Shown here in pieces: positions 15,117 to 63,841 of a DNA stretch of 64,000 bases. Every line of letters starts with the position of its first letter. Within the stretch, counting starts at the first letter, position 1. Made by a program: the position numbers and the translations under genes. The notes beneath the pieces are model-generated. The model was given only the letters and a program-made list of their open reading frames with translations, searched no databases and was not told where the DNA came from. The stretch is from contig NZ_JAOQNK010000001.1 in the NCBI RefSeq assembly GCF_025961315.1, forward strand, positions 558,001-622,000, read 5' to 3'. The DNA is from Sphingobacterium kitahiroshimense. Lineage in GTDB: Bacteria > Bacteroidota > Bacteroidia > Sphingobacteriales > Sphingobacteriaceae.

Positions 15117-15140
15117 TACGTATTATTACATTTCATACCC
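15117..15140 (+). promoter_or_regulatory. Stress-box promoter motif upstream of sigma factor 1
   Basis: TACG, 14 bases, then ATACCC. The box ends 81 bp before the ATG. The same layout occurs before genes starting at 58610 and 52265 on the other strand. Confidence 0.5.
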
Positions 15141-15208
15141 TTTACCTTACTTATTATCAAACTATTATCTTAAATTTAACGTTATAAAAGGATCAAGTTG
15201 GTGTTAAG

Positions 15209-15216
15209 AAGGAGGT
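15209..15216 (+). promoter_or_regulatory. Strong Shine-Dalgarno sequence (AAGGAGGT)
   Basis: A full match to the 16S anti-SD, 5 bases before the sigma factor ATG. This is unusual in Bacteroidetes, where most genes lack it. Confidence 0.7.
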
Positions 15217-15220
15217 CCAG

Positions 15221-15721
15221 ATGGGAAATGTAAATTTAAATGTCTTGTTCCAGGAAAAAAGACAATTACTGAGTCATTTTGCAAGTCAATTTACATCAGA
15301 TTATGACGAAAAAGAAGATCTGATACAAGAAACGTATTTAAGGGCATTAAAATCCATAAATGAATTTATAAATGATCCTAAATTGGTGACCTGGCTGTAT
15401 GTCATCATGAAAAATGTTTACATCAATCAATATCGAAAAGAAAAGCGAAAAAATGTGATCTATGATTACTTTTTACACGCTGATTCCAGTGCATATATAA
15501 GTACTAATTTATCAGAAAAAAAAATGATTAACGAAGATATCCAAAAAGCAATTGATAGCCTCTCCACCGAAAATGCAGAGATTTTCCGTTTGCATTTAGA
15601 TGGTTATAAGTATCATGAAATTGCAGAACTGCTTCAAGTTCCAGAAGGCACCATCAAGTCACGCATTTATATGACGCGTAAAGTGCTGCAGCAAAAGTTG
15701 AAGATGTATGATCATGCATAA
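15221..15721 (+). CDS. ECF-type RNA polymerase sigma factor (paralog 1)
   Basis: 166 residues. Region 2 is at about 15-85 (DYDEKEDLIQETYLRALKSINEF, then TWLYVIMKNVYINQYRKEKRK), and region 4 at about 105-160 (IDSLSTENAEIFRLHLDGYKYHEIAELLQVPEGTIKSRIYMTRK). It should direct RNA polymerase to a special promoter set. No anti-sigma gene is next to it. A paralog lies 1.9 kb downstream, with stress-type genes around both. The start is fixed by a strong Shine-Dalgarno sequence and by alignment with the paralog. A promoter-like box found before other stress genes is also before this gene, so self-activation is likely. Confidence 0.92.
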   Translation: MGNVNLNVLFQEKRQLLSHFASQFTSDYDEKEDLIQETYLRALKSINEFINDPKLVTWLYVIMKNVYINQYRKEKRKNVIYDYFLHADSSAYISTNLSEKKMINEDIQKAIDSLSTENAEIFRLHLDGYKYHEIAELLQVPEGTIKSRIYMTRKVLQQKLKMYDHA

Positions 15722-15756
15722 GATTGGGTAAAGAGGGAAAACCTTTTGCCAAAAAA

Positions 15757-15795
15757 ATCACGTTAAGGAAAGCATAAATACCTTCTTAACGTGAT
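15757..15795. terminator. Hairpin between sigma factor 1 and the convergent DUF4142 gene
   Basis: ATCACGTTAAG (15757-15767) pairs with CTTAACGTGAT (15785-15795). It is preceded by an A tract, so it best fits termination in minus-strand direction but may serve both genes. Confidence 0.6.
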
Positions 15796-15840
15796 CTAAA
15801 TATGACTTAAGCTTATTATAAAATTTAATTCTTTTCTTCA

Positions 15841-16386
15841 CTATCCCCCCTTAGTATACGGCGGAATAGTCGAAGCTGTTTCAGTTGCTCCATTTGCCAC
15901 TAATACACGGGCTTGGTCCAAGTGTGCTTTAAGAGAAGGTAAGGTACCAATGATCCAGTTTTTAAGACCGACATCTTTGATCTGCTCATTGCTGCTTGCT
16001 TTTTCAAATAAATCGATCGCCTGCTGATGGGAGGCAATCGCCTCATCTTTAAAAGCTTGATCGAAGCTGGTACTGTCACTCCCTTTTACCATATCCCACT
16101 TCTTTTGATGATCGGCATCCAGGCCATCCGTCAATGTAAAGCCAAGTGTACTTGACATCTTTTGCAAATCGCCGATTAATTTTTGATGGTCATCGATCAA
16201 CATGCTTGCATAATTTTTAACCGCATCATTATTCGATCTCTCACTGGCCAGTTTAGCAATAGCAATTTCATATTGATTGGACATATAAGCTTTCGTTATA
16301 AATTCCTGTTCAGCATTTTGCTGTTTAAAGGCTAACAGGGAAATAATTCCTAGAAATATACCCCATAATTTTAAATTTCTGATCAT
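15841..16386 (-). CDS. DUF4142 domain protein (ferritin-like, exported)
   Basis: 181 residues. A hydrophobic N-terminal segment (about 8-19) is a signal or anchor. The rest is a helical bundle with FITKAYMSNQYEIAIAKLASE, then NYASMLIDDHQKLIGDLQ, typical for DUF4142. His and Glu residues are spaced as in ferritin-like bundles, but metal binding is not shown. Members are often in the general stress set of Gram-negative bacteria. It is 52 bp after the small membrane protein gene and probably in one operon with it. Confidence 0.85.
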   Translation of the reverse strand: MIRNLKLWGIFLGIISLLAFKQQNAEQEFITKAYMSNQYEIAIAKLASERSNNDAVKNYASMLIDDHQKLIGDLQKMSSTLGFTLTDGLDADHQKKWDMVKGSDSTSFDQAFKDEAIASHQQAIDLFEKASSNEQIKDVGLKNWIIGTLPSLKAHLDQARVLVANGATETASTIPPYTKGG

Positions 16387-16438
16387 GATTTTAATATGAA
16401 TATTAGTGATTTATCTTCATCTATAGTAAGAATATACC

Positions 16439-16699
16439 TTATGCATTTTTATTATCCTGCTGATCGTGTCCCTGAGTTTTCACGATCTTATTGTAAATTC
16501 CAAACAGCAGAAACGGTGCTACCCATTGCCCGACAAATACTGCACTATGTTTGTGTCCGACACATTTTAAAGCTGCTGCGCCGATCATGGCCGTGATGGC
16601 TGCACATAAGAATACTTTTGAAGGCAATTGAGCGGTTTTTTCCTCGATCTCCTTGGTCATCTCTCCTTCTTGAAGGTTTTTGTTTTCTAAATTTTCCAT
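16439..16699 (-). CDS. Small membrane protein
   Basis: 86 residues. A charged N-terminus (MENLENKNLQEGEMTKEIEEK) is followed by two hydrophobic stretches, at about 28-46 and 54-70, and a Lys/Asp/Gln-rich tail. I do not recognise a family. Its first residues recall other small stress proteins of this window (MENSQLKEEFEQ, MENNFDNKTNFSEEE). A stress-box motif lies 91 bp upstream. It is followed by the DUF4142 gene in the same direction. Confidence 0.7.
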   Translation of the reverse strand: MENLENKNLQEGEMTKEIEEKTAQLPSKVFLCAAITAMIGAAALKCVGHKHSAVFVGQWVAPFLLFGIYNKIVKTQGHDQQDNKNA

Positions 16700-16789
16700 C
16701 TTACTCCTTTTTTAATTAAGTAATACGTTATGATCTCTTAAATAAAGAATCAATCCGAACAGGTAAAAGTTCAATTCATATTACTTTAA

Positions 16790-16797
16790 GGGTATTT
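16790..16797 (-). promoter_or_regulatory. Stress-box promoter motif (AAATACCC)
   Basis: Reads GTGTGAAATACCCTTAAAG in gene direction, with the box 91 bp before the ATG of the small membrane protein. Confidence 0.45.
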
Positions 16798-17025
16798 CAC
16801 ACCGACACAACAGGTGTTTCCACCTATAAATGACTGATTTTATGTGTTATACCGCGTATGTGGTAAATGCGCAATCGCTTTGAACAAACACCCCTTTCAC
16901 TATGGATACGATCGGTCAGGGAAAATCTTTAATTGTTAAAAATATGATCTATGGCAGAAATGATGCAGATTTTGACCGTACGGACCACAGTGGTACTTAT
17001 ACCTAGCCCCATAAAACCATTAGCT

Positions 17026-17031
17026 ATACCC
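17026..17031 (+). promoter_or_regulatory. Stress-box-like motif (ATACCC) upstream of sigma factor 2
   Basis: Reads GCTATACCCTATTAAAGG. It ends 72 bp before the chosen ATG. There is no TACG at the upstream distance seen in other copies. Confidence 0.35.
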
Positions 17032-17102
17032 TATTAAAGGCTAAACTTTTAATGCCAAATGACCGTTAAATTAGTAACACTTTTAAATTAATGGAGGATA
17101 AT

Positions 17103-17603
17103 ATGGAGCATGCAAATTTAAATGTCTTATTCCAGGAAAAAAGACAACAACTGAATCATTTCGCTAGCCAATTTACCAATGATTACGATGAAAAAGAGGA
17201 TTTGGTACAGGAAACGTTTATTCGGGCGTTAAAATCAGTTCATAATTTCATCAATGATCCAAAATTAATGACCTGGTTGTATGTGATTATGAAAAATATC
17301 TATATCAACCAGTATAGAAGAGAAAAACGTAAGCATTTAATCTATGAAGAATATATTCATACAGACTATTTCAATACCGTATCAAAAAACTTAAATGAAG
17401 ACAAAATGATACAGGATGATATTCAAAAAGCGCTGGCAAGCGTATCGGCCGATAATGCAGAAATATTTAAGCTTTATCTCGATGGTTATAAATATCACGA
17501 GATTGCCGAAGCCTTTAACCTACCGGAAGGAACAGTTAAATCACGCATTCACCAGACGAGAAAGACTTTGCAACAGAAACTCAAGATGTATCAGCTATCC
17601 TGA
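17103..17603 (+). CDS. ECF-type RNA polymerase sigma factor (paralog 2)
   Basis: 166 residues from the chosen start MEHANLNVLFQEKRQQ. An ATG 12 bp upstream is in frame, but GGAGG (17093-17097) overlaps it and sits 5 bases before the second ATG, so the second is preferred; it also matches the start of paralog 1. The sequence is about two thirds identical to paralog 1 over its whole length. Region 2 (DYDEKEDLVQETFIRALKS) and region 4 (GYKYHEIAEAFNLPEGTVKSR) are intact. No anti-sigma gene is adjacent. The differences lie mostly in the linker, so the two may share promoters. Confidence 0.92.
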   Translation: MEHANLNVLFQEKRQQLNHFASQFTNDYDEKEDLVQETFIRALKSVHNFINDPKLMTWLYVIMKNIYINQYRREKRKHLIYEEYIHTDYFNTVSKNLNEDKMIQDDIQKALASVSADNAEIFKLYLDGYKYHEIAEAFNLPEGTVKSRIHQTRKTLQQKLKMYQLS

Positions 17604-17734
17604 TTCCAGGGCATTGCGGTGGAAACAACTTCATCAAAAAGTCATCACAATAATTGATCACCTCACTGATGTGGGCGATCGATCAAAATAGATGAATAAA
17701 CTAGATCATAATTTTTTAACATAACAATTCAATC

Positions 17735-17965
17735 ATGAACATGACGTCCCTAATTTTAGGAGCTTTTATAAGCCTGGCTATGGTCACAGGATGTGGCAAT
17801 GCCAATAATGATAATAAAGACGCTGATAAAAAATATTCAGACACGATCGATGATCAGGGAAATCCCATTTATCCAGATAGCGTCAATCAGGACTCCACCA
17901 CGGTCAACTACCGGGATACAACTTCCAATATACCAAGTGGTACAGTCCCTCCTACTTCAAAATAG
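17735..17965 (+). CDS. Small lipoprotein
   Basis: 76 residues. A signal peptide ends in VTGC at residues 17-20. The mature part of about 57 residues is hydrophilic and rich in Asp, Asn, Ser and Thr, so it is probably disordered. No family recognised. Another lipoprotein of this type lies at 20823. It is downstream of sigma factor 2 by 131 bp. Confidence 0.7.
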   Translation: MNMTSLILGAFISLAMVTGCGNANNDNKDADKKYSDTIDDQGNPIYPDSVNQDSTTVNYRDTTSNIPSGTVPPTSK

Positions 17966-18108
17966 GATGATTACTGAAGTAGAAATAAGTTCCTTAAAAC
18001 AACTGGATATATAATCAAAAAAATGTGTTTTTAAGTTTAAAACAAACTTTTACCCATCACCGGTTGTTTTATTAAAGAAGCGCAATAGTTAACAAAAAAG
18101 ATTCAATC

Positions 18109-18369: not shown

Positions 18370-18459
18370 CAAGTTCGAGATCAATCTGTATCTCCTTATT
18401 GCTAGTTATCGCAAAAGGTATCCATATATCATTTTAAACAAACATTTAACGCCATTAAC

Positions 18460-18966: not shown

Positions 18967-19010
18967 CTGGTAGTATTAAAAAAGTAGAAATTCACAAAAA
19001 CACATATATT

Positions 19011-19549: not shown

Positions 19550-20434
19550 CTAGATGGTGACACGTCCTCCGGTAGCCGGTATTGTCGCTCCCGAAATATA
19601 AGAAGCTGCGGCTGACGCTAAAAATACATAAATAGGTGCCAGCTCTGCAGGCTGGCCAGGTCGGCCGATCGGAGTATTGGCTCCAAATTTTTCATGATCA
19701 GGAATGGTGCTCGGAATCAATGGTGTCCACACCGGTCCGGGTGCAACAGCATTGACCCGGATATCTGAACCATCCTCAAAAAATTGCTGGGCAAGGCTGG
19801 CGGTATAATTTTGGATCGCCGCTTTTGTCGCTGCATAGGGCAACAAAGATGGATTAGGATCATAAGCATTAACAGAAGTCGTATTGATCACACTCCCACC
19901 TTTGGGAAGATGTGGCTTGGCATGTTTGGTCAAATAAAACATCCCGCTCACATTTGTTTCAAATGTCTTATTCCATTCTTCGGCAGAGATATCGGTCACA
20001 GACTGATAACTCATCTGATAGGCCGCATTGTTAATTAAAATATCCAGTCTTCCAAATTCCTTGATCGTATGCTCAATAGCGGACTCACAAAAAGATTCTT
20101 CCCGTATATCTCCTTGAATCAGCAGTGCTTTTCTTCCAGCCTTTTCAATCCAGCTCGCTGTATCTGCAGCATCTTCACTTTCGACCTCATCCAGATAGAT
20201 AATTGCGATATCAGCACCTTCCCTTGCCATGGCTATGGCAACCGCTTTGCCGATACCTGAATCTCCGCCGGTGATTAAACAGACCTGCCCGGTTAGCAAA
20301 TTATTTCCAATATATGATTTCTCTCCATGGTCGGGCACGGGATCCATTTTCTTGGATACGCCCGGCACAGGCTGATCCTGTTTCTTAAATGGCGGTTGCG
20401 GATACGCAGGATGTTTTGATGTCGTAACTTTCAT
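19550..20434 (-). CDS. Short-chain dehydrogenase/reductase, general stress type
   Basis: 294 residues from ATG (MKVTTSKHPAYPQPPF); an upstream TTG start is unlikely. The N-terminal extension of about 45 residues (QPPFKKQDQPVPG) is typical of the stress-linked SDR group (YhdG, general stress protein 39). The NAD(P) site is TGGDSGIGKAV, the core NNAAYQ, and the catalytic pair is in SLLPYAATKAA (Tyr and Lys). The end holds GRPGQPAELAPIYVFLASAAASYISG. The substrate is unknown. A TAACCC variant of the stress box lies 76 bp upstream. Confidence 0.92.
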   Translation of the reverse strand: MKVTTSKHPAYPQPPFKKQDQPVPGVSKKMDPVPDHGEKSYIGNNLLTGQVCLITGGDSGIGKAVAIAMAREGADIAIIYLDEVESEDAADTASWIEKAGRKALLIQGDIREESFCESAIEHTIKEFGRLDILINNAAYQMSYQSVTDISAEEWNKTFETNVSGMFYLTKHAKPHLPKGGSVINTTSVNAYDPNPSLLPYAATKAAIQNYTASLAQQFFEDGSDIRVNAVAPGPVWTPLIPSTIPDHEKFGANTPIGRPGQPAELAPIYVFLASAAASYISGATIPATGGRVTI

Positions 20435-20509: not shown

Positions 20510-20515
20510 GGGTTA
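20510..20515 (-). promoter_or_regulatory. Stress-box variant (TAACCC)
   Basis: Reads CTTATAACCCAATATAAG in gene direction, 76 bp before the SDR start. The sequence is also an imperfect palindrome. Confidence 0.3.
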
Positions 20516-21194: not shown

Positions 21195-21851
21195 TTATTG
21201 CATTAAACCTGTTCTAATCGCATATTTAATCAGCGCAGCGGTATTTTTCACACCGGTTTTTTCAAGTAAATTTTGTCTATGCCCTTCTACAGTACGTTTG
21301 CTTAAAAATAGTTTATCAGCGATCTGCATATTCGTAAATCCCTCACCAATGAGCTCCAGTACTTCCATCTCTCTTTCCGAAAGCCCCATCTTCTCCATGA
21401 TCTGTTCAATGTTTAAGAAAGCAGTTGGTGACTTCTGTAAAGTATCGAGCATGATACCTCCAATCTCTTCACAGATAAACTGTCCACCATTGGCAACATG
21501 TCTAATGGCATACAGCATTTCCTCGTATCCTACATTTTTGACGAGATAGCCATTCGCACCATTCTTAAAAGCTTGCAGTACATGCTGTAAACTATTCAAC
21601 ATGGAGAGAACAATTATTTTTACAGACGGGTACTGCGATTTCACTTTCAATATGAGTTCCAGCCCATCCATATCTGCCATATTAATATCGGTTATCAGAA
21701 CATCTGGAATATTCCCTTTGCTCATGATTTCCAATACCTCATTACCATTCGTTCCCTGATCAATAACTTCCAGATCAGATTGCGATTCCAATAATAGTTT
21801 CACTCCATTGAGGACAACTAGATGATCTTCAGCTATAACAATTTTAACCAT
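21195..21851 (-). CDS. NarL/FixJ-type response regulator
   Basis: 218 residues. The receiver domain (1-120) has the phospho-accepting Asp in VLITDINMADMDGLEL, a Ser in IIVLSML and the Lys in GYLVKNVG. The C-terminal LuxR-type helix-turn-helix is at about 150-215 (LSEREMEVLELIGEGFTNMQIADKLFLSKRTVEGHRQNLLEKTG). The gene is 2 bp downstream of a degenerate histidine kinase gene. Since that kinase cannot phosphorylate itself on His, the Asp here must be charged by another kinase or by a small phosphodonor, if at all. The phytochrome-like kinase divergent at 22836 is one candidate. Confidence 0.93.
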   Translation of the reverse strand: MVKIVIAEDHLVVLNGVKLLLESQSDLEVIDQGTNGNEVLEIMSKGNIPDVLITDINMADMDGLELILKVKSQYPSVKIIVLSMLNSLQHVLQAFKNGANGYLVKNVGYEEMLYAIRHVANGGQFICEEIGGIMLDTLQKSPTAFLNIEQIMEKMGLSEREMEVLELIGEGFTNMQIADKLFLSKRTVEGHRQNLLEKTGVKNTAALIKYAIRTGLMQ

Positions 21852-21853
21852 AT

Positions 21854-22835: not shown

Positions 22836-25016
22836 ATGGAAAACAACGTGCCTTTACCCATTAACTTTATTCAACAATTTGGTAGTCTCATTGTCCTTGA
22901 TTTTGATTTTCATATCACAGGAGTAAGCGAAAATGTTCTTCATACGGTCAATCAAACAGAACATAATCTCATTTTAGGATCTAAATTTGATCTCTATTTT
23001 GCTGATTTATTTGGAAAACATTTTGTAAAAATATGTCAGGTATTGGAAAATATACGGGATAAAAAATATCCGAGACAGATCTTGCCCCTCAAATTACCAA
23101 ATAAAAGAATCTATCTCAAATTAAGTTTACACGATGATCATTTGTTTATCGAATGGGAGGAGCAGTATAAAAAATATACTTCGGCAAAAAAAATAAATGA
23201 GTTTAGTTTCCTTTTAGACACCATAAAACCCAACAACTGGGATCTGGTCTGCCACGCTATTAACCGGATCCTTCATTATGACCATGTATTTGTCGTTCAG
23301 GTGCAGGAAACGGGCTATAGCCAGGTCATTGCAGAAGATACGTTAGACGGGAAAGCATATTACAGGAATATGGAATTCTCGAAAAGCTTTATGCCGAAAG
23401 AGGTTTTCCCCTATTACAGCATGTGTTCATACCGCTATAGTCCCAATCTACGGGATAACCAGCAACAGTTCTATTCCATTGATCCAAAGATCAATCTACT
23501 GGAGAGTCAGTTGGCTCCAGTTCCTGAACTGCACCGGCTCTTCCTATCGGAAAAGGAAGTTACAAGTGCCCTGTTTTTTTCTATACATGTAGGTGGACAG
23601 TTTTGGGGGCTTTTAATTGGGCATCATCACAAAGAAAAGAATATCGATCTGCAGCAACGAAAGCTCTGTACTTTTATGATCCAAAATGCCACCAGTAAAT
23701 ATGAAAACTACATCAATCAGGATCTGTTGGAGCGAGGCAAACTTCTAAAAGACGTGGAAGTCAATCTGAAAATTGATTTGTTAAAATACAAGACGGCCAA
23801 TTGTGCCCTTGTGCAACATATGGGTACCATCATGGACATGGTCAATGCAGACGGTCTGGCCATATTTAATCAGGGTGATGTTTATTTTCACGGGATCTGT
23901 CCGAATAAAGGACAGCTATATGAGATCATAACCTTTATTCAGACCCACTCCGAAAAAGCCTTATTTAAGGATAATAATTTTAGAGAAAGCCATGGGGAAA
24001 AGATTAAAGGACAATTACCTTTTGCAGGGCTTATGTATCTTAAGATAGGGCTTTTGAGTGATCAGGTCCTGATTTGGTTCCGAAAAGAAACCGTGAGCAA
24101 TGTAATGGAGATGCATGTCACTCCGGAAACAGATGGCAACGATGGGATTAAACAGATAGACCTCACTGAAAGTGTTAATTACGATATCGCTACCCCTTGG
24201 AACGATGTCGAAATCAGTTTTGTACTACGCCTAAATCAAATTTTAAAGGAATCCATTGTTGGAAAATTAAAAGACAAACAACAATGGAGTGAACAGCTGT
24301 TAGCACTCAACAATGAATTGGAGATGTTAACCTTTACACTTTCCCACGATTTAAAAAATCCATTATCCATTCTCAAAATGGGGATCCAATTTTTACAGAA
24401 CAGTAAACAGTCTCTCAATCCCGCAGCACTGCAAAAATGGTACAGCAATCTGATCGCCAGCACGGAAAGTATTGAAAGTATCATCAACAATGTCGTGTTA
24501 CTTTCCCAACGTAAAACCGGAACCTTCACGAAAGATCCGATTCCGATGGCATACACATTGGATCAGATCTATAAAGAAAGTATTATCCTGCACAATCCCG
24601 CTTTAGCAACGGTTGATTACGGTAAATTGCTTCCGGTATGGGGTGAGAAAAGTGCTTTGTATCAGATCTTCAGTAATATCATCGGCAATGCGATCAAGTA
24701 CAGTCCTGGCACCGCCGGCGTAAAGCTTCACATTGACAGCTATTTTGAAGATGAGCAGGTCTGTTATAAGATAAAAGATCAGGGTATCGGTATTCCCAAA
24801 GAAAACCTGCACAGCATATTTGAGATTTTTAAAAGGGGAAAAAATGTGGATCACATCGAAGGAACAGGTGTAGGTCTTTCCTTAGTGAAGCGTATTATGG
24901 AAAGATTAGGGGGAACCATCAAAATAGATTCTGAAGAAGAAAAAGGAACGACCGTTTACCTCTACTTCCCTATTGTTGAAGAATTCCCACCCAGTATGCT
25001 TTTAGATGATCTGTAA
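22836..25016 (+). CDS. Phytochrome-like sensor histidine kinase without bilin attachment site
   Basis: 726 residues. The layout is PAS (about 8-105), GAF (about 125-300), PHY-like (about 310-470), HisKA (His504 in TLSHDLKNPLS) and HATPase (GNAIKYSP, DQGIGIP, GTGVGLSL). The GAF end FWGLLIGHHH and PELHRLFLS match the His positions of bacteriophytochromes, but the N-terminal Cys that holds biliverdin is missing and the PASDIP motif is replaced by SKSFMP. Thus it probably does not bind bilin in the usual way. It is cytoplasmic and has no fused receiver. It is divergent from the degenerate kinase and response regulator pair, which may be its target. Confidence 0.85.
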   Translation: MENNVPLPINFIQQFGSLIVLDFDFHITGVSENVLHTVNQTEHNLILGSKFDLYFADLFGKHFVKICQVLENIRDKKYPRQILPLKLPNKRIYLKLSLHDDHLFIEWEEQYKKYTSAKKINEFSFLLDTIKPNNWDLVCHAINRILHYDHVFVVQVQETGYSQVIAEDTLDGKAYYRNMEFSKSFMPKEVFPYYSMCSYRYSPNLRDNQQQFYSIDPKINLLESQLAPVPELHRLFLSEKEVTSALFFSIHVGGQFWGLLIGHHHKEKNIDLQQRKLCTFMIQNATSKYENYINQDLLERGKLLKDVEVNLKIDLLKYKTANCALVQHMGTIMDMVNADGLAIFNQGDVYFHGICPNKGQLYEIITFIQTHSEKALFKDNNFRESHGEKIKGQLPFAGLMYLKIGLLSDQVLIWFRKETVSNVMEMHVTPETDGNDGIKQIDLTESVNYDIATPWNDVEISFVLRLNQILKESIVGKLKDKQQWSEQLLALNNELEMLTFTLSHDLKNPLSILKMGIQFLQNSKQSLNPAALQKWYSNLIASTESIESIINNVVLLSQRKTGTFTKDPIPMAYTLDQIYKESIILHNPALATVDYGKLLPVWGEKSALYQIFSNIIGNAIKYSPGTAGVKLHIDSYFEDEQVCYKIKDQGIGIPKENLHSIFEIFKRGKNVDHIEGTGVGLSLVKRIMERLGGTIKIDSEEEKGTTVYLYFPIVEEFPPSMLLDDL

Positions 25017-25024: not shown

Positions 25025-25528
25025 CTAATCATCCAGATCAAGGGTGAACCGGTACAGTTCATGGATAATATGGTTGACTGCGGTGATATAAATCTGGGCA
25101 GCATCGCAGTCTACACAGTGCAGTGTTTTTCGCATATGGATACCACTAAAGCATATGGCTATAAAGATATCGCCCACCTCAGCTTGATGTTCAGTGGATG
25201 AATCCGGAAAAGCCATCCCGGTTATCGCCACATAAACATCGGCCTCCACTAATTTTTTAAGCCCCTCCAGCATTTCAAACGTGACTTCCGATGACTCTGG
25301 AGTAAAGTAAGAAATGCTATGATCATCCACCTGCAACAAAGACTTTTTGACACTTGTCGCATAACTCGTCACTCCTCCTAAGAAATAAGATCCAGAGTCC
25401 GTCTGCATACTCAGCACACTGCCGAGAAAACCACCCGTCATACTTTCTCCTATAAAGACCTTGAGCTGGTTATCTTTTAAAAACTGACCAACTTTGTCTA
25501 ATGTTGTCGTATCAATATATTCCATCAT
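25025..25528 (-). CDS. CinA C-terminal-type nicotinamide-nucleotide amidohydrolase family protein
   Basis: 167 residues, only the C-terminal domain of CinA. It has the GESMTGGFLGSVL motif with the catalytic Ser, then YFLGGVTSYATSVKKSLLQV, and AITGMAFPD, all typical. The family (PncC) hydrolyses nicotinamide mononucleotide to nicotinate mononucleotide and ammonia. It is cytoplasmic. It is convergent with the phytochrome-like kinase gene. In other bacteria stand-alone CinA-type genes are often in stress regulons. Two adjacent ATG codons are possible starts. Confidence 0.85.
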   Translation of the reverse strand: MMEYIDTTTLDKVGQFLKDNQLKVFIGESMTGGFLGSVLSMQTDSGSYFLGGVTSYATSVKKSLLQVDDHSISYFTPESSEVTFEMLEGLKKLVEADVYVAITGMAFPDSSTEHQAEVGDIFIAICFSGIHMRKTLHCVDCDAAQIYITAVNHIIHELYRFTLDLDD

Positions 25529-25659
25529 ATATGTTAATTGTTAGTGGTGATGAAGTGAAAACTTTATTTACAAACAACTTGGACACCCCAATAGTTCATT
25601 ATAGACATTTCCAGATAGGATAATATTTATTTTAATAGCAGAGATCCGCACTATTTCAG

Positions 25660-25821: not shown

Positions 25822-26199
25822 CTATATTAAAGATGGCTTTTATTAAACTTTTAAACGCTTTTTTGGCTGGAAATTCGCTTGTATACAGCTGTGATTTAAA
25901 GCAATCCGTATAAAGCCTCTCCAGGCGCACGAGATCGCAAAATACTATAGAACATCATATATTTATGAACACATCAACACTATTCAAAACACTAAAAACA
26001 GATGACTTGCCTCCCTGTCCAAGGCCAGTCTACAAAAAGATATGGGCATTGAACCTGCAGCATGGAACAAAAATGTGCAGTAGTCCAGGCTTTATCCAAA
26101 TAATAAACACCCCATTGTAGCACAAAACTTAAATAATAATTAGCGCGTTAAAAACCGACGGCCTACACATTACAAGATCGTCCAAAATCTGAGAAAACC

Positions 26200-33825: not shown

Positions 33826-34284
33826 TTATTTCTTTTGCAATGATGCAGCATGATGTATGGCCTGACGAATTCGAGAATAAGTTCCGCAACGGCAGATGTT
33901 TCCGGTCATGGCATCATCAATATCCTGATCAGTTGGATTCGGCCGTTCACGTAATAATACAGCTGCCGACATGATTTGACCGGCATGACAGTAACCACAT
34001 TGGGGCACATCCACATCTTTCCAGGCAACTTGCAATGGATGGTCACCTTTTTCAGAAAGACCCTCAATCGTGATCACCTCTTTGCCAACTGCGCGTTTCA
34101 TTTTTGTAACACAGGATCTTACCGCTTCACCGTCCATATGGACCACACAAGCACCGCATTGTGCTACTCCACAGCCGTATTTTGTTCCAGTCAAACCGAC
34201 GACATCACGTAAAAACCACAGCAGTGGCATTTCTTTATCAATAACGACCTCGTATTCCTTTTTGTTAATGCGAATGGTTTCCAT
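33826..34284 (-). CDS. 2Fe-2S subunit, isoquinoline 1-oxidoreductase alpha-like
   Basis: 152 residues. The first 2Fe-2S centre (plant-ferredoxin type) uses [16 protein letters not shown] and a later Cys; the second (helical) uses [11 protein letters not shown] and CRCG. This is the small-subunit layout of the xanthine oxidase superfamily. It has no signal peptide; it is probably carried across the membrane together with the Tat-bearing large subunit. It is the first gene of the three-gene operon. Between it and the divergent cysteine desulfurase gene there are 268 bp with no gene. Confidence 0.92.
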
Positions 34285-34552
34285 AATTGTGTATGTTAGT
34301 TGTTATATAACAGTCTGTATTCATCATTTGTTTATTTTGGGCTTATCCTCTTTCTTTCAGATGCTTTGGCTCTCCACTTTCAAAAGCCATCACATCATGA
34401 TCTTAGTCTTAAAAATATGTATTTTTCACCTATACATTATCGAGCACAGCACAAAACAGTAATATTGGTAGAAGAATCCGTAAATGGGGTTGTTGATTAC
34501 AAGCAAAACGATGCTTTTTGGACCCATCCTCTCAAATTAATTCAGTACATTT

Positions 34553-45462: not shown

Positions 45463-46440
45463 TTAAGCCAGCAGGCATTGTGCCAGTGCAGATTCCACAG
45501 CACCTTTCAGCATGCCTACTTTAAAACCATTTTGTGCCAAGGGATGCGCATCCGCGACAATCATGGCGGCGGCCTCACTAAATACAGCAGCAGTGGCATT
45601 TTTACCGATCAAGAACTCTTCAGCTTCCAGCCAGCGCCAAGGCTTATGTGCTACACCACCAGAGGCTAGCCGAGCTTCAACGATACGGTCACCGTCCAAG
45701 TGCAGTGCAGCAGCTACCGAAACCAGAGCAAAGGCATAAGAAGCCCGGTCTCTGATCTTAAGATAAGCACAATGTTTCGCAAATGGATTTTCTGAAATTT
45801 TAATAAATGAAATTAAAGCATGATCCGGTAAATTATTGTCCAGATGAGGATCATTTCCCGGAAGACGATGAAACTCCTGAAACGGAATAACAGTCTCTTT
45901 TTGATCTTTTGTGATCACGTGTACTTCAGCATCCAATGCAACAAATGCGACACAGAGATCAGATGGATGTACAGCAACACAATCTTTACTATAACCAATT
46001 ATGGCGCTCATCCTATTTTCTCCAGCATATGCACTGCATCCGGTACCCGGTTCACGCTTATTGCAGTGGGTCGTGGTATCGTAGAAATATGGACAACGGG
46101 TACGTTGCAAGATATTACCTCCTGTAGAAGCCATATTTCGGATCTGCGGAGAAGCTCCAGCCAAAACAGCTTTTGCAAGCAACGGAAAATCCTTTAATAC
46201 CTTCGCGTCGGTCGCAATTTCAGTATTGCGAACCATAGCACCGATATGAATATTTTTGTCATGTGTATCTATTGTACGAATAAGCGCATCATTAATGTCT
46301 ACAACAGTATCCGGAAGATGCACGTTCTTTTTCATCAAATCGACCAGATTTGTTCCGCCCGCGATATACTGCACATGATCTTTTTTATGAGAAAGTGCAG
46401 TTTTGGTATTGGTTACTCTTATAAATTCGAAAGGTTTCAT
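45463..46440 (-). CDS. FAD-binding subunit with 4Fe-4S insert, PaoB-like
   Basis: 325 residues. The FAD-binding domain has AGGTNLVDLMKKN and IGAMVRNTEIA at the start; then the insertion TRCPYFYDTTTHCNKREPGTGCSA holds four cysteines, as in the PaoB and CutM-type subunits with an extra 4Fe-4S cluster. The C-terminal domain is of the CO dehydrogenase flavoprotein kind. The start codon overlaps the end of the 2Fe-2S gene by 4 bp. Confidence 0.93.
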   Translation of the reverse strand: MKPFEFIRVTNTKTALSHKKDHVQYIAGGTNLVDLMKKNVHLPDTVVDINDALIRTIDTHDKNIHIGAMVRNTEIATDAKVLKDFPLLAKAVLAGASPQIRNMASTGGNILQRTRCPYFYDTTTHCNKREPGTGCSAYAGENRMSAIIGYSKDCVAVHPSDLCVAFVALDAEVHVITKDQKETVIPFQEFHRLPGNDPHLDNNLPDHALISFIKISENPFAKHCAYLKIRDRASYAFALVSVAAALHLDGDRIVEARLASGGVAHKPWRWLEAEEFLIGKNATAAVFSEAAAMIVADAHPLAQNGFKVGMLKGAVESALAQCLLA

Positions 46441-47030
46441 GATTGCGCTACTTTTTGAATAGATTGAACAATACCGTTATAAGCTCCACAGCGGCAAAGA
46501 TTGCCACTCATAAATTCTTTAATTTCCTCAACGGAATGCGTGTGACCCTCTTTTACACAGGCAATAGCCGACATAATTTGCCCGGGTGTACAATAGCCAC
46601 ATTGAAAACCATCACATGCAATAAAAGCCTCCTGCATCGGATGCAGTTGCTCACCATCGGCAATTCCTTCAATCGTGGTTACCTCTTTTCCGACCGTAGA
46701 GGCAGAAAGAGTCAGGCAGCTTAAAACCCTTACGCCATCCACATGGACCGTGCAGGCGCCACATTGACCGTGATCACAGCCCTTCTTTGTACCGGTAAGG
46801 CCAAGGTTTTCACGCAAAAGATCCAGCAAGGTAGTTCTTGTATCCGAATCAAGCGTGTAAGCCTTTTTATTAACCTGTAACGTCAAAGGAACTGTGCGCT
46901 TGGCAGGAACAATAAATTGTTTCACCTGTAGGTAGGCCGCTTTTAAAGAAGCCGGAAGGGTCGCCAGTAAAGTAAGGGCGCCAGTGGTCTTTAAAAAAAA
47001 TCTTCTGCTGAAATTACTGTTTTTCTTCAT
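46437..47030 (-). CDS. Tat-exported 2Fe-2S subunit, PaoA-like
   Basis: 197 residues. A twin-arginine signal (RRFFLKTTGALTLL, residues 9-22) shows export of the folded complex to the periplasm. The ferredoxin-type cluster uses KKGCDHGQCGACTVHVDG and a later Cys, and the second cluster uses QCGYCTPGQIM and CRCGAY. It is the first gene of the operon that continues to moaCB. The 289 bp upstream, before the TPR gene, must hold the operon promoter, but I see no clear box. Confidence 0.93.
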   Translation of the reverse strand: MKKNSNFSRRFFLKTTGALTLLATLPASLKAAYLQVKQFIVPAKRTVPLTLQVNKKAYTLDSDTRTTLLDLLRENLGLTGTKKGCDHGQCGACTVHVDGVRVLSCLTLSASTVGKEVTTIEGIADGEQLHPMQEAFIACDGFQCGYCTPGQIMSAIACVKEGHTHSVEEIKEFMSGNLCRCGAYNGIVQSIQKVAQS

Positions 47031-47319
47031 AATTGGAATATTTTTTTGTCCTTACCATTGAACAGTAAAGCCAAATTAAGTAGCCAAAGCATAACTTTAG
47101 AACAAATTAAAGCAGTTAAAAGTTTTCATATGCCTATATTAAACGGCGACCGTTACGCATAACTAAAAAATATTGTTCTACCTATTTCAAATTTCATGAA
47201 TAGCCCGCAATTAATAAGTACATATATTACTGTTTCTGCTACCAATATTACTGATCCTAAGCTGAGGACTTTTTTAAGATCTCATGTAATAATAATACTA
47301 AGTGGCTAGGTTAATTCTT

Positions 47320-47755: not shown

Positions 47756-48532
47756 CTATTGCTCTTTTAAACATATCCAGACCGGTGCATGGTCGCTTGT
47801 TTTCTCCCAGCTTCTTACATGCCTGTCGATTCCGCTTTCTAAAAGTCTGTCTTCCAATAAGGGACTAAGTAAAATATGATCCAAACGGAGACCGGCATTC
47901 CGGCTGTATGCATGCCGCAAATAGTCCCAGAAGGTATATACCTTCTGATCCGGAAATAATTTCCGTATAGTATCCAGCCATCCTTGAGCTACAAGATGCT
48001 CAAATGCCTTCCTAACTTCAATTCTGAACAAAGCATTATCGGTGTATTTTTCCGGTTTGTATGTATCCATCTCCGTCGGAATGATATTAAAATCTCCAAT
48101 AAGGATGACGGGAATCTCCATTGCTAACAAGGCCTTAGTTCGCTTGGTTAGCCGTTTTATCCAGTTGATTTTATAGTCGAACTTTGGTCCTGGATAGGGA
48201 TTCCCATTAGGCAGGTACAAGCAGCAGATCACGAGCTGATTGACAATAACCTCTAGGTACCGGCTATGGGTATCGTCTTTATCTCCAGGCAATACGCGTG
48301 AGACTTCTGTGATATCGTATTTAGAAAGCACTGCAACACCGTTCCAGCTTTTTTCACCATGCCATACTGCCTTGTAACCAGCGTCGGTAATAGCCTGTAT
48401 AGGAAAACGCTCCTGTGGAGCCTTTAATTCCTGCAGACAAACGACATCAGGAGATTCCTCCTTTAACCATCGAAGCAATACAGGTAGACGGCCATTAATA
48501 CCATTGATATTATAGGTTGCTATTTTAATCAT
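47756..48532 (-). CDS. xth: Exodeoxyribonuclease III
   Basis: 258 residues. It has the endonuclease/exonuclease/phosphatase fold with MIKIATYNINGINGRL, PDVVCLQELKAP (catalytic Glu), VILIGDFNIIPTEMD (Asp, Asn), and RLDHILLSP with SDHAPVWICL at the end (Asp-His). It cuts at abasic sites and removes nucleotides from 3' ends in DNA repair. It fits the repair and stress genes around it. It is followed by a TPR protein gene. Confidence 0.95.
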   Translation of the reverse strand: MIKIATYNINGINGRLPVLLRWLKEESPDVVCLQELKAPQERFPIQAITDAGYKAVWHGEKSWNGVAVLSKYDITEVSRVLPGDKDDTHSRYLEVIVNQLVICCLYLPNGNPYPGPKFDYKINWIKRLTKRTKALLAMEIPVILIGDFNIIPTEMDTYKPEKYTDNALFRIEVRKAFEHLVAQGWLDTIRKLFPDQKVYTFWDYLRHAYSRNAGLRLDHILLSPLLEDRLLESGIDRHVRSWEKTSDHAPVWICLKEQ

Positions 48533-48785
48533 GACTTAGCATATATCATTATGATCACTTCACATTAAAACAAACACCGCTCACCAAAGTTTGACCGACA
48601 ACGGTATTGAAATAAAAACATTATTATCCCGGTTAGAGAACAAAAGTGGACTATCTAGTGTACTCTTTAATATCAAGGCTTTAAAAGGAGCCTACATAAG
48701 ATGAATACTGATATTTGCTAGAGGGTCGAGATCCGATGCAGGTAGGGTAATAACAGTTAGTATTTCACCACTTAAAACGAAAATC

Positions 48786-49320: not shown

Positions 49321-49326
49321 TTACCC
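49321..49326 (+). promoter_or_regulatory. Stress-box variant (TTACCC)
   Basis: Reads GTTTTACCCTTTAACATTC, ending 81 bp before the ATG of the DUF2383 gene, the same distance as before sigma factor 1. Confidence 0.35.
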
Positions 49327-49406
49327 TTTAACATTCACCATAAGTTTAAATAATGAACTAACATTCTTTTAGATTGTTTATTAAATAAACATGAAGAGCA
49401 TATACG

Positions 49407-49883
49407 ATGGAAAATTTATTGCAGGAACAGGCCTATCTGTTAAATAATTTAGTAGAGGCCAATAATGACCGAATTGCGGGTTATACCAAATATATTGAAC
49501 TGTTACCAAAAGATACGCACAACGATATTGATAAGTACCTTAGGCAATACCGGGATCAGTCTGAACAATTTATTACAGACCTCAAACCCTTCGTTTATGA
49601 GGCAAGCGAATTTCCACAGCTAAGCACAACTATATCGAGCAAATTACGCAACATGTGGCTGGATCTGAAGAATAGTTTTGTTGAGAATACGATCCAGAGC
49701 ATCTTAAATGACTGCGAAAAAAGAGAAGACATCTACAAGCGTGTGTATCATCACACTTTAGAAGAAAAAGAAGTGCTGACATTAGAAGCAGAACATCTCA
49801 TTCGGCATCAGGCGATACTGCAGCTTCAGGCTCATGATCATATTAAAAGCCTGCGGGACAAAAATTTAGCGGATTGTCCGTAA
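49407..49883 (+). CDS. DUF2383/PA2169-type four-helix-bundle protein (copy 1)
   Basis: 158 residues. The pattern NNLVEANNDRIAGYTKYIELLP, FITDLKPFVYEA, LRNMWLDLKNSF, and LNDCEKREDIYKRVYHHTLEE is that of the PA2169-like ferritin-fold family, with Glu, Asp and His on the inner side of the bundle. It is the most divergent of three copies in this window (others at 51798 and 58122). Roles suggested for the family include stress protection, but none is established. A terminator follows. Confidence 0.8.
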   Translation: MENLLQEQAYLLNNLVEANNDRIAGYTKYIELLPKDTHNDIDKYLRQYRDQSEQFITDLKPFVYEASEFPQLSTTISSKLRNMWLDLKNSFVENTIQSILNDCEKREDIYKRVYHHTLEEKEVLTLEAEHLIRHQAILQLQAHDHIKSLRDKNLADCP

Positions 49884-52265: not shown

Positions 52266-52345
52266 AATACATTGAGTTACTTTATAAATATTTATACAAG
52301 AAAAACAACCCATCGTAACAGGAGTTCACCGTTACTTTGATTTTC

Positions 52346-52369
52346 AAGTATTAACACAAAAATTCCGTA
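52346..52369 (-). promoter_or_regulatory. Stress-box promoter motif (TACG-N14-ATACTT)
   Basis: In gene direction TACG, 14 bases, ATACTTG. It includes TTGTGTTAATAC, very close to TTGTGTAAATAC before copy 3. The box ends 81 bp before the ATG. Confidence 0.5.
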
Positions 52370-58610: not shown

Positions 58611-58689
58611 AATGTTTTTTTTAGTTGATTTAACAGTTATAGGAAAAGAACATACCTTAGAATCGATAGTTCAATACAGTTTCTAATTC

Positions 58690-58713
58690 GGGTATTTACA
58701 CAAGAGTTACGTA
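58690..58713 (-). promoter_or_regulatory. Stress-box promoter motif (TACG-N14-ATACCC)
   Basis: In gene direction TACG, 14 bases, ATACCCG. The box ends 80 bp before the DUF2383/DUF892/catalase operon ATG. The same layout is before sigma factor 1. Confidence 0.5.
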
Positions 58714-60409: not shown

Positions 60410-60483
60410 GGATTCTTTCTTTTAATGTACATGATAACCGATTATTTTACTGGTGAAAAACAGTAACTACCGGTGCTATTTAC

Positions 60484-63183
60484 CTATTCTGCTGAGTATT
60501 TATCAATTACTTTTTTGAGATCGATTCCTTTACCAAGTACAGGTTTAAAAATGTCACCTACACTTTCCAGTCTTTCAATCGCATTAAATATGGTAAAATC
60601 ACTCATCTTAAGACCTTTTTTTACCTCTTCCCAATATAAAGGCATCGAAACAGTCGCTCCTGGCTTAGGTCTTACTGAGTATACCGAGGCAATAGTTGCA
60701 TGCGGTCTGTTCTGTAGAAAATCCAGGTACATCCGTCCTTTCCTATTTTTTACTGTACGTTCTAGACTCGTAAAATTTGGAAGTTCCCGATTGATCAAGG
60801 TTACGACAACGCGTGCAAATTCTTTGGATTGTTCGTAGGTATACTTATTATTCAAGGGAATATAGATGTGAAGACCCGTAGATCCACTAGTCTTACAATA
60901 GCTTGGCACACCCATATCATCCAGCAATTGCTTGGTAACTTGGGCAGTCTCAATAACCTGATTAAATGAATTTTGGTCAGGATCAAGATCAATAATGCAG
61001 AACGTCGGATTGTCTGGTTTTTTAACGGTGCTATTCCAGGGATTCATTTCAATACAGCCCAGGTTGGCCATATACAGTAAGGTCGCTTCATCTTTCCCGA
61101 CAAGGTACAGTTTGTCCTTTTGATCTGTCTCACTTTTATATAGGTAAGTTTCAGCCCATTCGGGTGCGCTGTCTGCCACATTCTTAAAATAGAAACCTTC
61201 TCCTTTTATACCATCAGGGAAGCGGTTCATGCTCTGAGGCCGATCTTTGAGATAGGGCAATATATAAGGCGCGATCTGGTAATAGTAATTGATGAGATCG
61301 CGCTTGGTAATTTTCTCATCTGGCCAAAAAATCTTATCCAGATTCGTAAACTTCAGATCTTGTTTATTGACCTTTTTGACCTGCGTTTTTTCTGTCGGAT
61401 TTAATAAAGTTTTTCGTTTCATCTTACCTTGGGCAACAATAATATTTTTCTTTGAATCATTTACAATCTTCTTGGTAGATTCCTCTTTTTCCAGAACAAT
61501 ACTTTTTGGATCTTTATCCTCCCGCAATCCTATAAATGAAGGATGACGCATCACGCCATCTGTCGTCATTTCGGTAAAACTAACCTCACAGATTAGTTTT
61601 GGTTTTAGCCAGGTGACATTTGCATGTGGCGGGTCAGGTCGGAATCTAGAGGCTTTATTGACATCAGGTTCTGTACTGAATGGAGATTTATCAGCAGTTA
61701 CTTGATTAAACTTTTCCAGCATCTCTTTTTGCAGCTTGTCACTGAAACCAGTCCCCACCTTACCGGTGTAAACCAGTTTTTTCCCTTCATATACGCCCAC
61801 TAGAATGCTGCTGAATACTTTACTTGAACCATCGTTTTTTGTAAAGCCTCCAATAACAACTTCCTGCCGCTTATTTGCTTTAATTTTTAACCAGTCCTTT
61901 GTTCGAGCATGTACATGGTAAGCACTATCTTTACGTTTTGCCATAATCCCTTCCAGCCCCATTTCTCTTGCAGTTTCTAAAAACTTGATCCCTGAAGTAT
62001 AAAATGGCGTACTCAACTTAATGGTTTCGCTCGTTGATAAAATTTCATGAAGTATTGCTTTGCGATCAGTTAAAGTTAATTTGGTCAGGTCCTTTCCTTT
62101 ATACCATAAAATATCGAATACATAATAGAGTAAATCTCCATCCGCCTCACTACGCCAGTTCTGCAGTGCACCGAAATTGGCATGCCCGTTCTCACCCACA
62201 ACAACAATTTCACCATCCAAAATAGCTTCCAGCTTCATCGCTTTTAGCTCTTCATAGATGGGGTAAAATTTCTCGTTAAAACTCTTATCATTACGAGATT
62301 TAATTTCAGTTGTTTTATTGCCATTTAAAAAAGAAACAGCTCTGTAACCGTCCCATTTCACTTCATAAAGCCACTCATCGTCATCAAAAGGTTGATCAGT
62401 CAGTGTGGCCAGCATAGGCTCGACATGCTCATAGAAATCTTTTTTAGGCGTTTTTTTTAGAAGCATCGCTAGGTCGATATCATCACCCTCAGTTTCATCC
62501 GAAGTCGAAAGTTTTTCTTCGATACTTGCGGAAGCTTTTTTCTTGCCAGCAGGCTTATCTTTGGAACTACTTTTCTGGGTTGTTTTTTGTCCATAAACAC
62601 GATCCGGGGACTTTTCCATCTGTGCGATGCTCTTTTTAGAAATAACAGATTTATCCTTTAGGGTGATATCTTTATCACTCGCATATTTATCGTCCAGCTT
62701 CATCAGCAACCAGCTATTTTCAGCCTTGCCATACGCCTTGACCAAGGCAAATTCGCCTTTCAATTTGTTGCCGTTAAGCTTAAATTTAAGTTTACCGGCT
62801 TTTAGCTGTTTTAAAAGCTCTTTTTCCTGTTTTTTGACATCGCCACCTACAGAATCAGCAGGTTCATAAGTTCCTTCATCCCAAACAATGACTGTTCCAC
62901 CACCGTATTGTCCCTTGGGAATCACGCCTTCAAAATTCCGGTAATCTAAAGGATGATCCTCGACCATCATGGCCAGTCGTTTAATATCAGCATCGAGCGA
63001 TGGCCCCTTTGGTACAGCCCAACTCTTAAGAACACCATCCATTTCTAGGCGGAAATCATAATGCAGATGGGAAGCAGCATGCTTTTGTACCACAAATCTT
63101 AATTCTTTACCAGAAGACTTACCGCCAAAAGGTTCTGGCGTATTCTTTTGAGATCGTTTTTCACGATATTTATCTAAAGTCAT
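60484..63183 (-). CDS. ligD: DNA ligase D, phosphoesterase-ligase-polymerase
   Basis: 899 residues. The order is 3'-phosphoesterase (about 1-180; HLHYDFRLEMDGVLKSWAVPKG, VIPKGQYGGGTVIVWDEG), ATP-dependent ligase (about 255-560; adenylated Lys near residue 280 in YEVKWDGYRA, LDGEIVVV) and polymerase/primase (about 610-899; LINYYYQIAPYILPYLKDRPQ, SGSTGLHIYIPL, MYLDFLQNRPHATIA). It repairs double-strand breaks by end joining, together with Ku. No Ku gene is in this window. The gap before the ligase domain is rich in Lys, Ser and Asp. It follows a small gene by 32 bp. Confidence 0.97.
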   Translation of the reverse strand: MTLDKYREKRSQKNTPEPFGGKSSGKELRFVVQKHAASHLHYDFRLEMDGVLKSWAVPKGPSLDADIKRLAMMVEDHPLDYRNFEGVIPKGQYGGGTVIVWDEGTYEPADSVGGDVKKQEKELLKQLKAGKLKFKLNGNKLKGEFALVKAYGKAENSWLLMKLDDKYASDKDITLKDKSVISKKSIAQMEKSPDRVYGQKTTQKSSSKDKPAGKKKASASIEEKLSTSDETEGDDIDLAMLLKKTPKKDFYEHVEPMLATLTDQPFDDDEWLYEVKWDGYRAVSFLNGNKTTEIKSRNDKSFNEKFYPIYEELKAMKLEAILDGEIVVVGENGHANFGALQNWRSEADGDLLYYVFDILWYKGKDLTKLTLTDRKAILHEILSTSETIKLSTPFYTSGIKFLETAREMGLEGIMAKRKDSAYHVHARTKDWLKIKANKRQEVVIGGFTKNDGSSKVFSSILVGVYEGKKLVYTGKVGTGFSDKLQKEMLEKFNQVTADKSPFSTEPDVNKASRFRPDPPHANVTWLKPKLICEVSFTEMTTDGVMRHPSFIGLREDKDPKSIVLEKEESTKKIVNDSKKNIIVAQGKMKRKTLLNPTEKTQVKKVNKQDLKFTNLDKIFWPDEKITKRDLINYYYQIAPYILPYLKDRPQSMNRFPDGIKGEGFYFKNVADSAPEWAETYLYKSETDQKDKLYLVGKDEATLLYMANLGCIEMNPWNSTVKKPDNPTFCIIDLDPDQNSFNQVIETAQVTKQLLDDMGVPSYCKTSGSTGLHIYIPLNNKYTYEQSKEFARVVVTLINRELPNFTSLERTVKNRKGRMYLDFLQNRPHATIASVYSVRPKPGATVSMPLYWEEVKKGLKMSDFTIFNAIERLESVGDIFKPVLGKGIDLKKVIDKYSAE

Positions 63184-63215
63184 AATTCATGAGTTATACG
63201 TTGAAAAAGAAACCA

Positions 63216-63467
63216 CTAAGTAGCCTTACCTTTATGTTCCCAATGATCTTTGACGGTATTGCCCTCATCGTCGATTTTTAGTCTTCTGGCATATCGGTCT
63301 CCGATAATATTTCCGTTAGAATTCTTCTTCCCTATAAAAAGCATAATTGGCCTCCCTTCATCATCCGTTTTAAACATCAGATCGTACCGTCCGAATTTCT
63401 GCTCCATCAATGTTAATGGGGCATACTGTTTTACTAAAATTTTTAAAATTGGCTCTTTTAATGACAT
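63216..63467 (-). CDS. Small protein upstream of ligD
   Basis: 83 residues, soluble and charged. MSLKEPILKILVKQYAPLT starts it, and the C-terminus holds RRLKIDDEGNTVKDHWEHKGK. Two DDEG stretches recur (TDDEGRPIM, DDEGNTV). I do not recognise the family. The gene is 32 bp before ligD, and a stress box lies 84 bp before it, so it probably starts the ligD transcript. Confidence 0.7.
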   Translation of the reverse strand: MSLKEPILKILVKQYAPLTLMEQKFGRYDLMFKTDDEGRPIMLFIGKKNSNGNIIGDRYARRLKIDDEGNTVKDHWEHKGKAT

Positions 63468-63841
63468 ACCGTAATTATAAATAAGTACCAGGTTCCATAT
63501 TGATCTAAGAACACACCTATTACGCGTATAGTTCTAATGATCATGAAATCGGGTATTTTATCGCCATAACGGGCATAAACCACTGTACGAAAGTCTGATC
63601 CGAAGAAGCAACCACAACATAAGATATACCTCCTACTGCAGTTAAATCTAGCTCATTCTGCTCCATACATCTCGTCCACATTACGTGGCTCAATACTGCA
63701 CAAATTTATGTTGCACAGATGACAAACCACTTACCAATACAAACGTATAACTTTATAAGTTATTGAAATATAGATAAATGATTGATTTGTCTGTTTAGTA
63801 AAACTTTCAGATATTTGTGTGGGTACAACATTAACCAAAAA
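63468..63841. other. Intergenic region, 374 bp
   Basis: It contains the stress box of the ligD operon at 63551-63559. The rest shows no feature I can support. Confidence 0.5.
63551..63559 (-). promoter_or_regulatory. Stress-box promoter motif (AAAATACCC)
   Basis: Reads GATAAAATACCCGATTTCAT in gene direction. The box ends 84 bp before the ATG of the gene preceding ligD. Confidence 0.45.

Follow-up and report, generated by a model that had tools for sequence, protein, structure and literature searches.

In the EcfG response of Alphaproteobacteria, to which NepR and PhyR belong, the promoter was described as GGAAC-N16-CGTT in Rhizobium etli (PMC3892343) and as GGAAC-N17-20-GTT in Sphingomonas melonis, where the EcfG genes include those for a catalase, a general stress protein 26, a CO-dehydrogenase-type protein, Ku and a topoisomerase IB (PMC6599016). 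EcfG was described as restricted to Alphaproteobacteria (PMC3892343). In the literature consulted, the general stress response of the Bacteroidota is thinly mapped, with one non-primary promoter class described in Bacteroides and one motif of an extracytoplasmic function (ECF) sigma factor in Flavobacterium. The former, promoter motif 2 of Bacteroides thetaiotaomicron, has non-canonical -10/-30 elements and was associated with oxidative stress as well as with stationary phase (PMC7366714); it carries TGTT near -10, and ECF sigma factors were proposed as its readers (PMC12596196). The consensus of the primary sigma factor of the phylum is TAnnTTTG at -7 (PMC7366714).

Here, we describe a candidate ECF promoter in a window of 64,000 nucleotides of Sphingobacterium kitahiroshimense (positions 558001-622000 of the single-contig, 6.29 Mb genome). 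A preliminary description of this window had reported a hexamer, ATACCC or its variants ATACTT, TTACCC and TAACCC, ending 72-91 bases before eight genes (two sigma factor genes, a small membrane protein gene, an SDR gene, three DUF2383 copies and a gene preceding ligD), and had proposed it as the shared promoter of a stress regulon, perhaps driven by the twin sigma factors themselves. Downstream of the box, a pair of half-sites with the form [G/A]AAC-N16-17-[C/T]GTT (GATT at one gene), hereafter called the dyad, had been overlooked at seven of the eight genes. We consider it probable (roughly 60%) that the dyad is a -35/-10 promoter read by the local ECF sigma factors and that the ATACCC box is an added activator-binding site at some of these promoters. 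The upstream regions of the eight genes are arranged as follows (window coordinates).

15117..15183, plus strand: sigma factor 1; TACG 15117, ATACCC 15135-15140, 18 bases, AAAC 15159-15162, 17 bases, CGTT 15180-15183.
16748..16795, minus strand: small membrane protein gene (16439-16699); ATACCC 16790-16795, 17 bases, GAAC 16769-16772, 17 bases, GATTCTT.
17026..17067, plus strand: sigma factor 2; ATACCC 17026-17031, 11 bases, AAAC 17043-17046, 17 bases, CGTT 17064-17067.
20510..20515, minus strand: TAACCC box of the SDR gene (19550-20434), the one gene of the eight with the box and without a dyad.
49321..49378, plus strand: DUF2383 copy 1 (49407-49883); TTACCC 49321-49326, 28 bases, GAAC 49355-49358, 16 bases, TGTT 49375-49378.
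52304..52369, minus strand: DUF2383 copy 2; TACG 52369, ATACTT 52346-52351, 18 bases, GAAC 52324-52327, 16 bases, TGTT 52304-52307.
58649..58713, minus strand: run of DUF2383 copy 3, DUF892 gene and catalase gene; TACG 58713, ATACCC 58690-58695, 17 bases, GAAC 58669-58672, 16 bases, TGTT 58649-58652.
63510..63556, minus strand: pre-ligD gene; ATACCC 63551-63556, 16 bases, GAAC 63531-63534, 17 bases, TGTT 63510-63513.

Spacing was counted in upstream regions from Sphingobacterium loci that had been fetched around sigma factor, DUF2383, pre-ligD and small-membrane-protein genes; the loci of sigma relatives were the best 80 of 133. Regions shorter than 60 nt were left out of the dyad, TACG-pair and profile counts, and a region was dropped if more than 30% of its 12-mers were common with an earlier one. 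The resulting 504 non-redundant regions (436 from other genomes) are, because of the genes around which they were fetched, enriched for the presumed regulon. RAAC and YGTT lay 17 bases apart in 101 and 16 bases apart in 33 cases, with 1-19 cases at each of the remaining spacings between 0 and 60, while 40 shuffles gave a mean of 7.5 at N17 and a maximum of 18 at any spacing. No spacing peak was obtained for the mirrored pair in the same regions, and 91 of the 101 N17 pairs came from other genomes. A logo of the 81 sites that had full flanks displayed AAAC, an A/T-rich part, an unconserved spacer, TGTT and an A/T-rich run, and in 72 of these sites the -35 element started within the bins from -110 to -40. 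Within the genome, 60 stretches of 20 kb served as comparison sample: the N17 dyad was found upstream of 9/42 window genes and of 5/631 sampled genes (Fisher 1e-8). An AAC at -35 followed by a short -10 element 16-17 bases away is the form of ECF-type promoters, and at the level of sequence RAAC-N16-17-YGTT fits this form.

The eight boxes were all recovered. Their distances matched those of the preliminary description to within 1 base or once the start codon chosen was taken into account, and three of the boxes were confirmed to have TACG 14 bases upstream (TACG at 15117, plus strand, and at 52369 and 58713, minus strand). Counting both strands, the window contains 131 matches to the four hexamer variants. 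Among genes preceded by no less than 100 nt of intergenic sequence (shortest called gene 80 aa for the window and 90 aa for the sample), a variant was present at the 72-91 position in 7/39 window genes compared to 11/540 sampled genes (Fisher 6.7e-5), and ATACCC alone in 4/39 compared to 2/540 (Fisher 2.4e-4), p values that are flattering because the list of variants was chosen after the sites had been seen. The seven positives comprise six of the eight genes and 50945; with the start codons taken in the count, the boxes of sigma factor 2 and DUF2383 copy 2 did not come to lie at this position. The box is thus rarer before sampled genes (2.0%) than before window genes (18%), so that the refutation proposed in the preliminary description, a box equally frequent before random genes, did not come about in this sample. 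Its positional profile in the sample was flat, and it is therefore not a genome-wide signal at -80. At five of the eight genes it lies 16-18 bases above the -35 element, a step of about 22 bases from the first letter of the box to that of the dyad; the distance deviates at sigma factor 2 (11 bases) and DUF2383 copy 1 (28 bases). The near-constant position of about 80 bases is largely a result of this box-to--35 distance.

Across the 504 regions, ATACYY stood 16 bases above RAAC in 18 and 17 bases above it in 8 cases, with 0-6 at other distances and a shuffle maximum of 6. The box is often a tandem AAATAC repeat with a repeat distance of 18 to 22, and the TACG of the preliminary description is its upstream copy; a second AATAC copy 18-20 bases away was found in 18 cases (shuffle mean 1, maximum 3). 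Apart from DUF2383 genes, the box is present at sigma factor 1, the pre-ligD gene, a DUF892 gene at 705 kb and the small membrane protein gene, whose promoter layout is the same in the ortholog of genome G043 (L262). A fourth DUF2383 gene of this genome, at 766 kb (L290), has the tandem box, 16 bases, AAAC, 17 bases and TGTT. Many dyads of the window have no box in place (for example those of 18109, 25528, 34284, 47030 and 48532), and the box is therefore an added module upstream rather than the promoter core itself. It lies just above -35 with repeats about two helical turns apart, which suggests a bound activator, so that the box is best read as a putative activator site. A candidate binder and a histidine kinase are encoded in the window.

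21195..21851, minus strand: LuxR-type response regulator (domains by Pfam), candidate binder of the box.
22836..25016, plus strand: PHY-domain histidine kinase; members of its similarity cluster are found near a sigma gene in 25/33 loci, and different kinases may be pooled in this cluster because of single-linkage clustering.

The two sigma factors of the window are small proteins with sigma-70 regions 2 and 4 only, as is characteristic of the ECF type.

15221..15721, plus strand: sigma factor 1, 166 aa, ECF type, regions 2 and 4 (PF04542, PF08281).
17091..17603, plus strand: sigma factor 2, 170 aa, ECF type (PF04542, PF08281), 71% identical to sigma factor 1.

Sigma factor 1 is 97% identical to a protein of Sphingobacterium sp. 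B16(2022), and a third close paralog (69% identity to sigma factor 1) is encoded at 704327 of the genome. AAAC-N17-CGTT was found upstream of all three, and a dyad also precedes both sigma genes of genome G043, both of G010 and that of G044. Of the 33 Sphingobacterium sigma genes examined, 9 have the dyad. Small lipoprotein-like open reading frames (ORFs) of similar sequence follow sigma factor 2 (17735-17965) and the third sigma copy (L160:8925-9146), and a similar one lies beside a sigma gene of G043; they possibly encode a partner protein. Nearly all sigma genes of the relatives' loci L053-L075 have a conserved ACGTATT followed by a C-rich stretch about 117-133 bases before their start (absent in L067), and in many of them TGTTTAAAC or TGTTTGAAC lies about 22 bases beyond ACGTATT. 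The sigma genes of this Sphingobacterium group lack the dyad, and the shared sequence is a different conserved element. In locus L035 (G000:C1:5972590-5976072) a sigma relative with 41% identity lies between ORFs that by eye resemble the LigD polymerase part and an aldo/keto reductase.

From these arrangements we infer that the dyad would be recognized by the stand-alone sigma factors encoded in the window (two) and at 704 kb (one), which would activate their own genes. They would further drive a small stress regulon consisting of the DUF2383 genes, the DUF892-catalase run, the pre-ligD-ligD genes, the small membrane protein gene, a CinA-like gene, an exonuclease-family gene, genes of two iron-sulphur subunits and perhaps a trehalose synthase gene. 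A separate regulator, perhaps one of the two-component proteins encoded nearby, would bind the tandem box just above -35 and raise transcription of the box-bearing subset. The earlier suggestion that the twin sigma factors drive these genes is likely, and the shared regulatory signature of the proposed regulon held up, pointing to a smaller, local regulon that would include the sigma genes.

The place of the dyad was further supported by a profile. It was trained on 89 sites of other genomes (none from loci of this genome or from its near-identical relative L051), and, with the upstream region of DUF2383 copy 2 taken from its used start in place of the ORF start 52313, scores of at least 11 were obtained for 14/42 window genes, 8/631 sampled genes and 8/673 reversed controls; as the training sites include relatives of the window genes, this tests the place of the dyad and is no independent discovery. 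Several observations weigh against this reading, in its dyad as well as in its box part. In the profile test the strict window matches of 21068, 26200 and 50945 scored below 5. In the count by spacing, the N16 dyad alone gave a weak window excess (5/42 compared to 17/631, Fisher 0.009). Whole-genome scans with loose patterns yielded no excess for the dyad (97 matches, 99 in the control) or for ATACCC-N14-20-GAAC (66 and 59), and the box with GAAC was rejected as a genome-wide signature; any regulon must therefore be small and local. This lack of excess would also be expected if all elements had arisen by chance in A/T-rich upstream DNA, an explanation that is barely credible, given spacing peaks far above those of the shuffles and the window-specific enrichment. 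As to the reader of the dyad, 24 of the 33 Sphingobacterium sigma genes, including all 21 of L053-L073, and 50 of 53 distant ones have no dyad, other spacings being equal or better in the latter. Distant sigma genes were accordingly rejected as dyad carriers (3/53, not above other spacings), and self-activation would be a trait of this lineage, not of the entire sigma family. Moreover, 30 ECF-like matches exist in the genome, two of them with 39-41% identity to sigma factor 1, and any of the 30 might read the dyad. A real ECF promoter read by one of these others, with the twins merely among the targets, would agree with the finding that most relatives' sigma genes have no dyad while neighboring genes have one. 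Such an arrangement is unlikely, since dyads are concentrated around members of this sigma family, whose distant relatives also have neighboring genes preceded by the dyad.

For the box, two other roles have to be weighed. One, which follows the preliminary description, takes ATACCC, with TACG 14 bases upstream, as the -10/-35 core of the regulon, which would make the AAC/GTT blocks incidental leader sequence. The box is indeed enriched in the window at a near-constant distance, and the TACG-14-ATAC pair was found in 3/8 of the box upstream regions and in 0/630 sampled ones. However, the spacing peak of the dyad is far sharper and window genes without a box in place have the dyad; TACG, as the upstream tandem copy, varies in distance from 18 to 22, unlike the members of a -35/-10 pair, and a transcription start just after the box would imply leaders of about 70-80 bases. 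ATACCC as the shared promoter is therefore not supported, and we regard this role as improbable; the shared element constrained in its spacing is the RAAC-N16-17-YGTT dyad. A more serious alternative, doubtful all the same, is that RNA polymerase itself contacts the box as A/T-rich upstream sequence, or that the box is left over from the duplication of DUF2383 promoters. It lies directly above -35, and 11 of the 18 AATAC repeats are upstream of DUF2383 relatives. Apart from this alternative, it counts against the box part of the preferred reading that the tandem pattern gave 62 matches in 41 of 60 Sphingobacterium genomes as compared to 33 in the control, and 12 of the 30 matches examined lie inside called ORFs; a further seven of the 30 lie before genes of the kinds treated here, namely DUF2383 relatives in five cases, among them the fourth DUF2383 gene L290, a gene that by eye is DUF892-like (L299) and the small membrane protein gene (L304). 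Against a contact site or remnant stand the specific letters AATACYY at a fixed spacing in regions made non-redundant by their 12-mers, and the presence of the box at the four other genes named above. An activator site in front of a dyad promoter thus remains our preferred reading of the two elements.

Besides the genes with a box, dyads were found upstream of the following genes.

8966..8989, minus strand: GAAC-N16-TGTT, DoxX-like gene 8549-8935.
14098..14122, plus strand: variant CAAC-N17-TGTT, acidic-protein gene 14157.
18044..18068, plus strand: AAAC-N17-TGTT, small-protein gene 18109; no box above, best profile score (22.5).
25573..25597, minus strand: GAAC-N17-TGTT, CinA-like gene 25025-25528; no box in place.
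26125..26149, plus strand: strict consensus, trehalose synthase/phosphatase gene 26200; doubtful, profile score below 5.
34309..34333, minus strand: AAAC-N17-TGTT, [2Fe-2S] subunit gene 33826-34284.
47101..47125, minus strand: AAAC-N17-TGTT, [2Fe-2S] subunit gene 46437-47030.
48569..48592, minus strand: AAAC-N16-TGTT, exonuclease-family gene 47756-48532.

Gene 18109 is followed by a pyridoxamine-oxidase-like gene (18460, by Pfam), which we take to be of the general stress protein 26 kind, and molybdopterin-binding large subunits are encoded near both [2Fe-2S] genes. Good dyads precede a gene that looks related to trehalose synthase in four relatives (L053, L061, L063 and L065). ORFs 13710-13955 and 14157-14741 encode two related acidic proteins with a KRLGLIIA motif near the start, both with the CAAC variant of the dyad; no Pfam match was obtained for 14157, and relatives of it occur near sigma genes in other loci. 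Ku-like and topoisomerase-IB-like neighbors were recognized by eye in relatives. When the 15 dyad upstream regions were compared by blastn for copied promoter DNA, only one weak, opposite-strand match of 21 bases was obtained, so that the promoters are not copies of one another. Several of the best-looking additional dyads of the genome were set aside as a repeat family: perfect-looking dyads of the GAACTATTCTATTCGACAGGTGTTCTTATA type lie in repeated DNA at 1126819, 1128949, 1188994, 1218535 and 1298840 of the chromosome (G000:C1), five near-identical repeats, with a variant at 739795, and some copies precede a repeated gene for a predicted secreted-looking protein.

Since such promoters have been described or proposed in Bacteroides and Flavobacterium, an ECF promoter of this sort is not new to the phylum. 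For the Sphingobacterium version, its gene set and the tandem box, no report was found among the titles listed in searches of open-licence papers, the lists being capped; for this genus a promoter at letter level, a candidate set of sigma factors and a gene list are gained. The dyad resembles motif 2 of B. thetaiotaomicron in being a putative non-primary Bacteroidota promoter, with TGTT present at the level of sequence. It differs in the sigma groups (ECF114 and ECF251 in B. thetaiotaomicron) and in the genes, and a tandem box is not mentioned in the available parts of the source. The ECF motif SM6 of Flavobacterium psychrophilum likewise has CGT in its -10 region; it is located before genes for type IX secretion and before an ECF/anti-sigma pair, and is induced by low nutrients (PMC9723704). 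In loci L077-L130 (mostly Chitinophagales and Cytophagales), where identity to the sigma factors is mostly 34-40% and in some cases up to 44%, 24/40 MerR-like genes near the distant sigma relatives have RAAC-N16-YGTT upstream (N13 in 9, N17 in 5), and over 365 distant upstream regions N16 was the most frequent spacing (25, the next being 15 at N26). These loci thus share the dyad at N16 before the MerR-like gene, but have different neighbors and sigma genes without a dyad. In some of them a phytoene-synthase-like gene lies near the MerR-like gene (names by eye), and the arrangement is reminiscent of a circuit for light or carotenoids that uses this promoter too.

The Sphingobacterium system is also like the alphaproteobacterial EcfG response, with a like promoter core and overlapping kinds of genes; the EcfG promoter starts with GG, whereas the first letter of the Sphingobacterium dyad is usually A. 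The exact GGAAC-N16-17-CGTT was found upstream of no gene in the Sphingobacterium loci and of one in the distant loci. No match to NepR (PF18557) was obtained in this genome at E 0.1; the control search gave matches in both Caulobacter vibrioides and Deinobacterium chartae, of which one exceeded the cut-off. For PhyR (PF22233) the only match, of 20 bits and thus below the cut-off of 27, lies in an ECF-like gene. In a comparison with PDB structures, SigH scored above chain 5uxx, presumably EcfG-like, for both sigma factors. Promoter core and gene kinds clearly resemble those of EcfG, whereas membership in the EcfG response is not evident, NepR having given no match and PhyR one below the cut-off only. 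As a tentative broader idea, with the odds still against it, the Bacteroidota may have a general stress response that parallels EcfG without its partner switch, in which stand-alone, self-activating ECF factors would act on an EcfG-like GAAC-N17-TGTT before genes of overlapping kinds (catalase, NHEJ ligase, general stress protein 26, molybdenum hydroxylases, trehalose) and a regulator at tandem AAATACC would gate a subset, so that two signals must agree. If true, this would run parallel to EcfG with a similar core of the promoter, NepR and PhyR not having been found, and would be built on a composite promoter in which the tandem box offers a handle for a second regulator.

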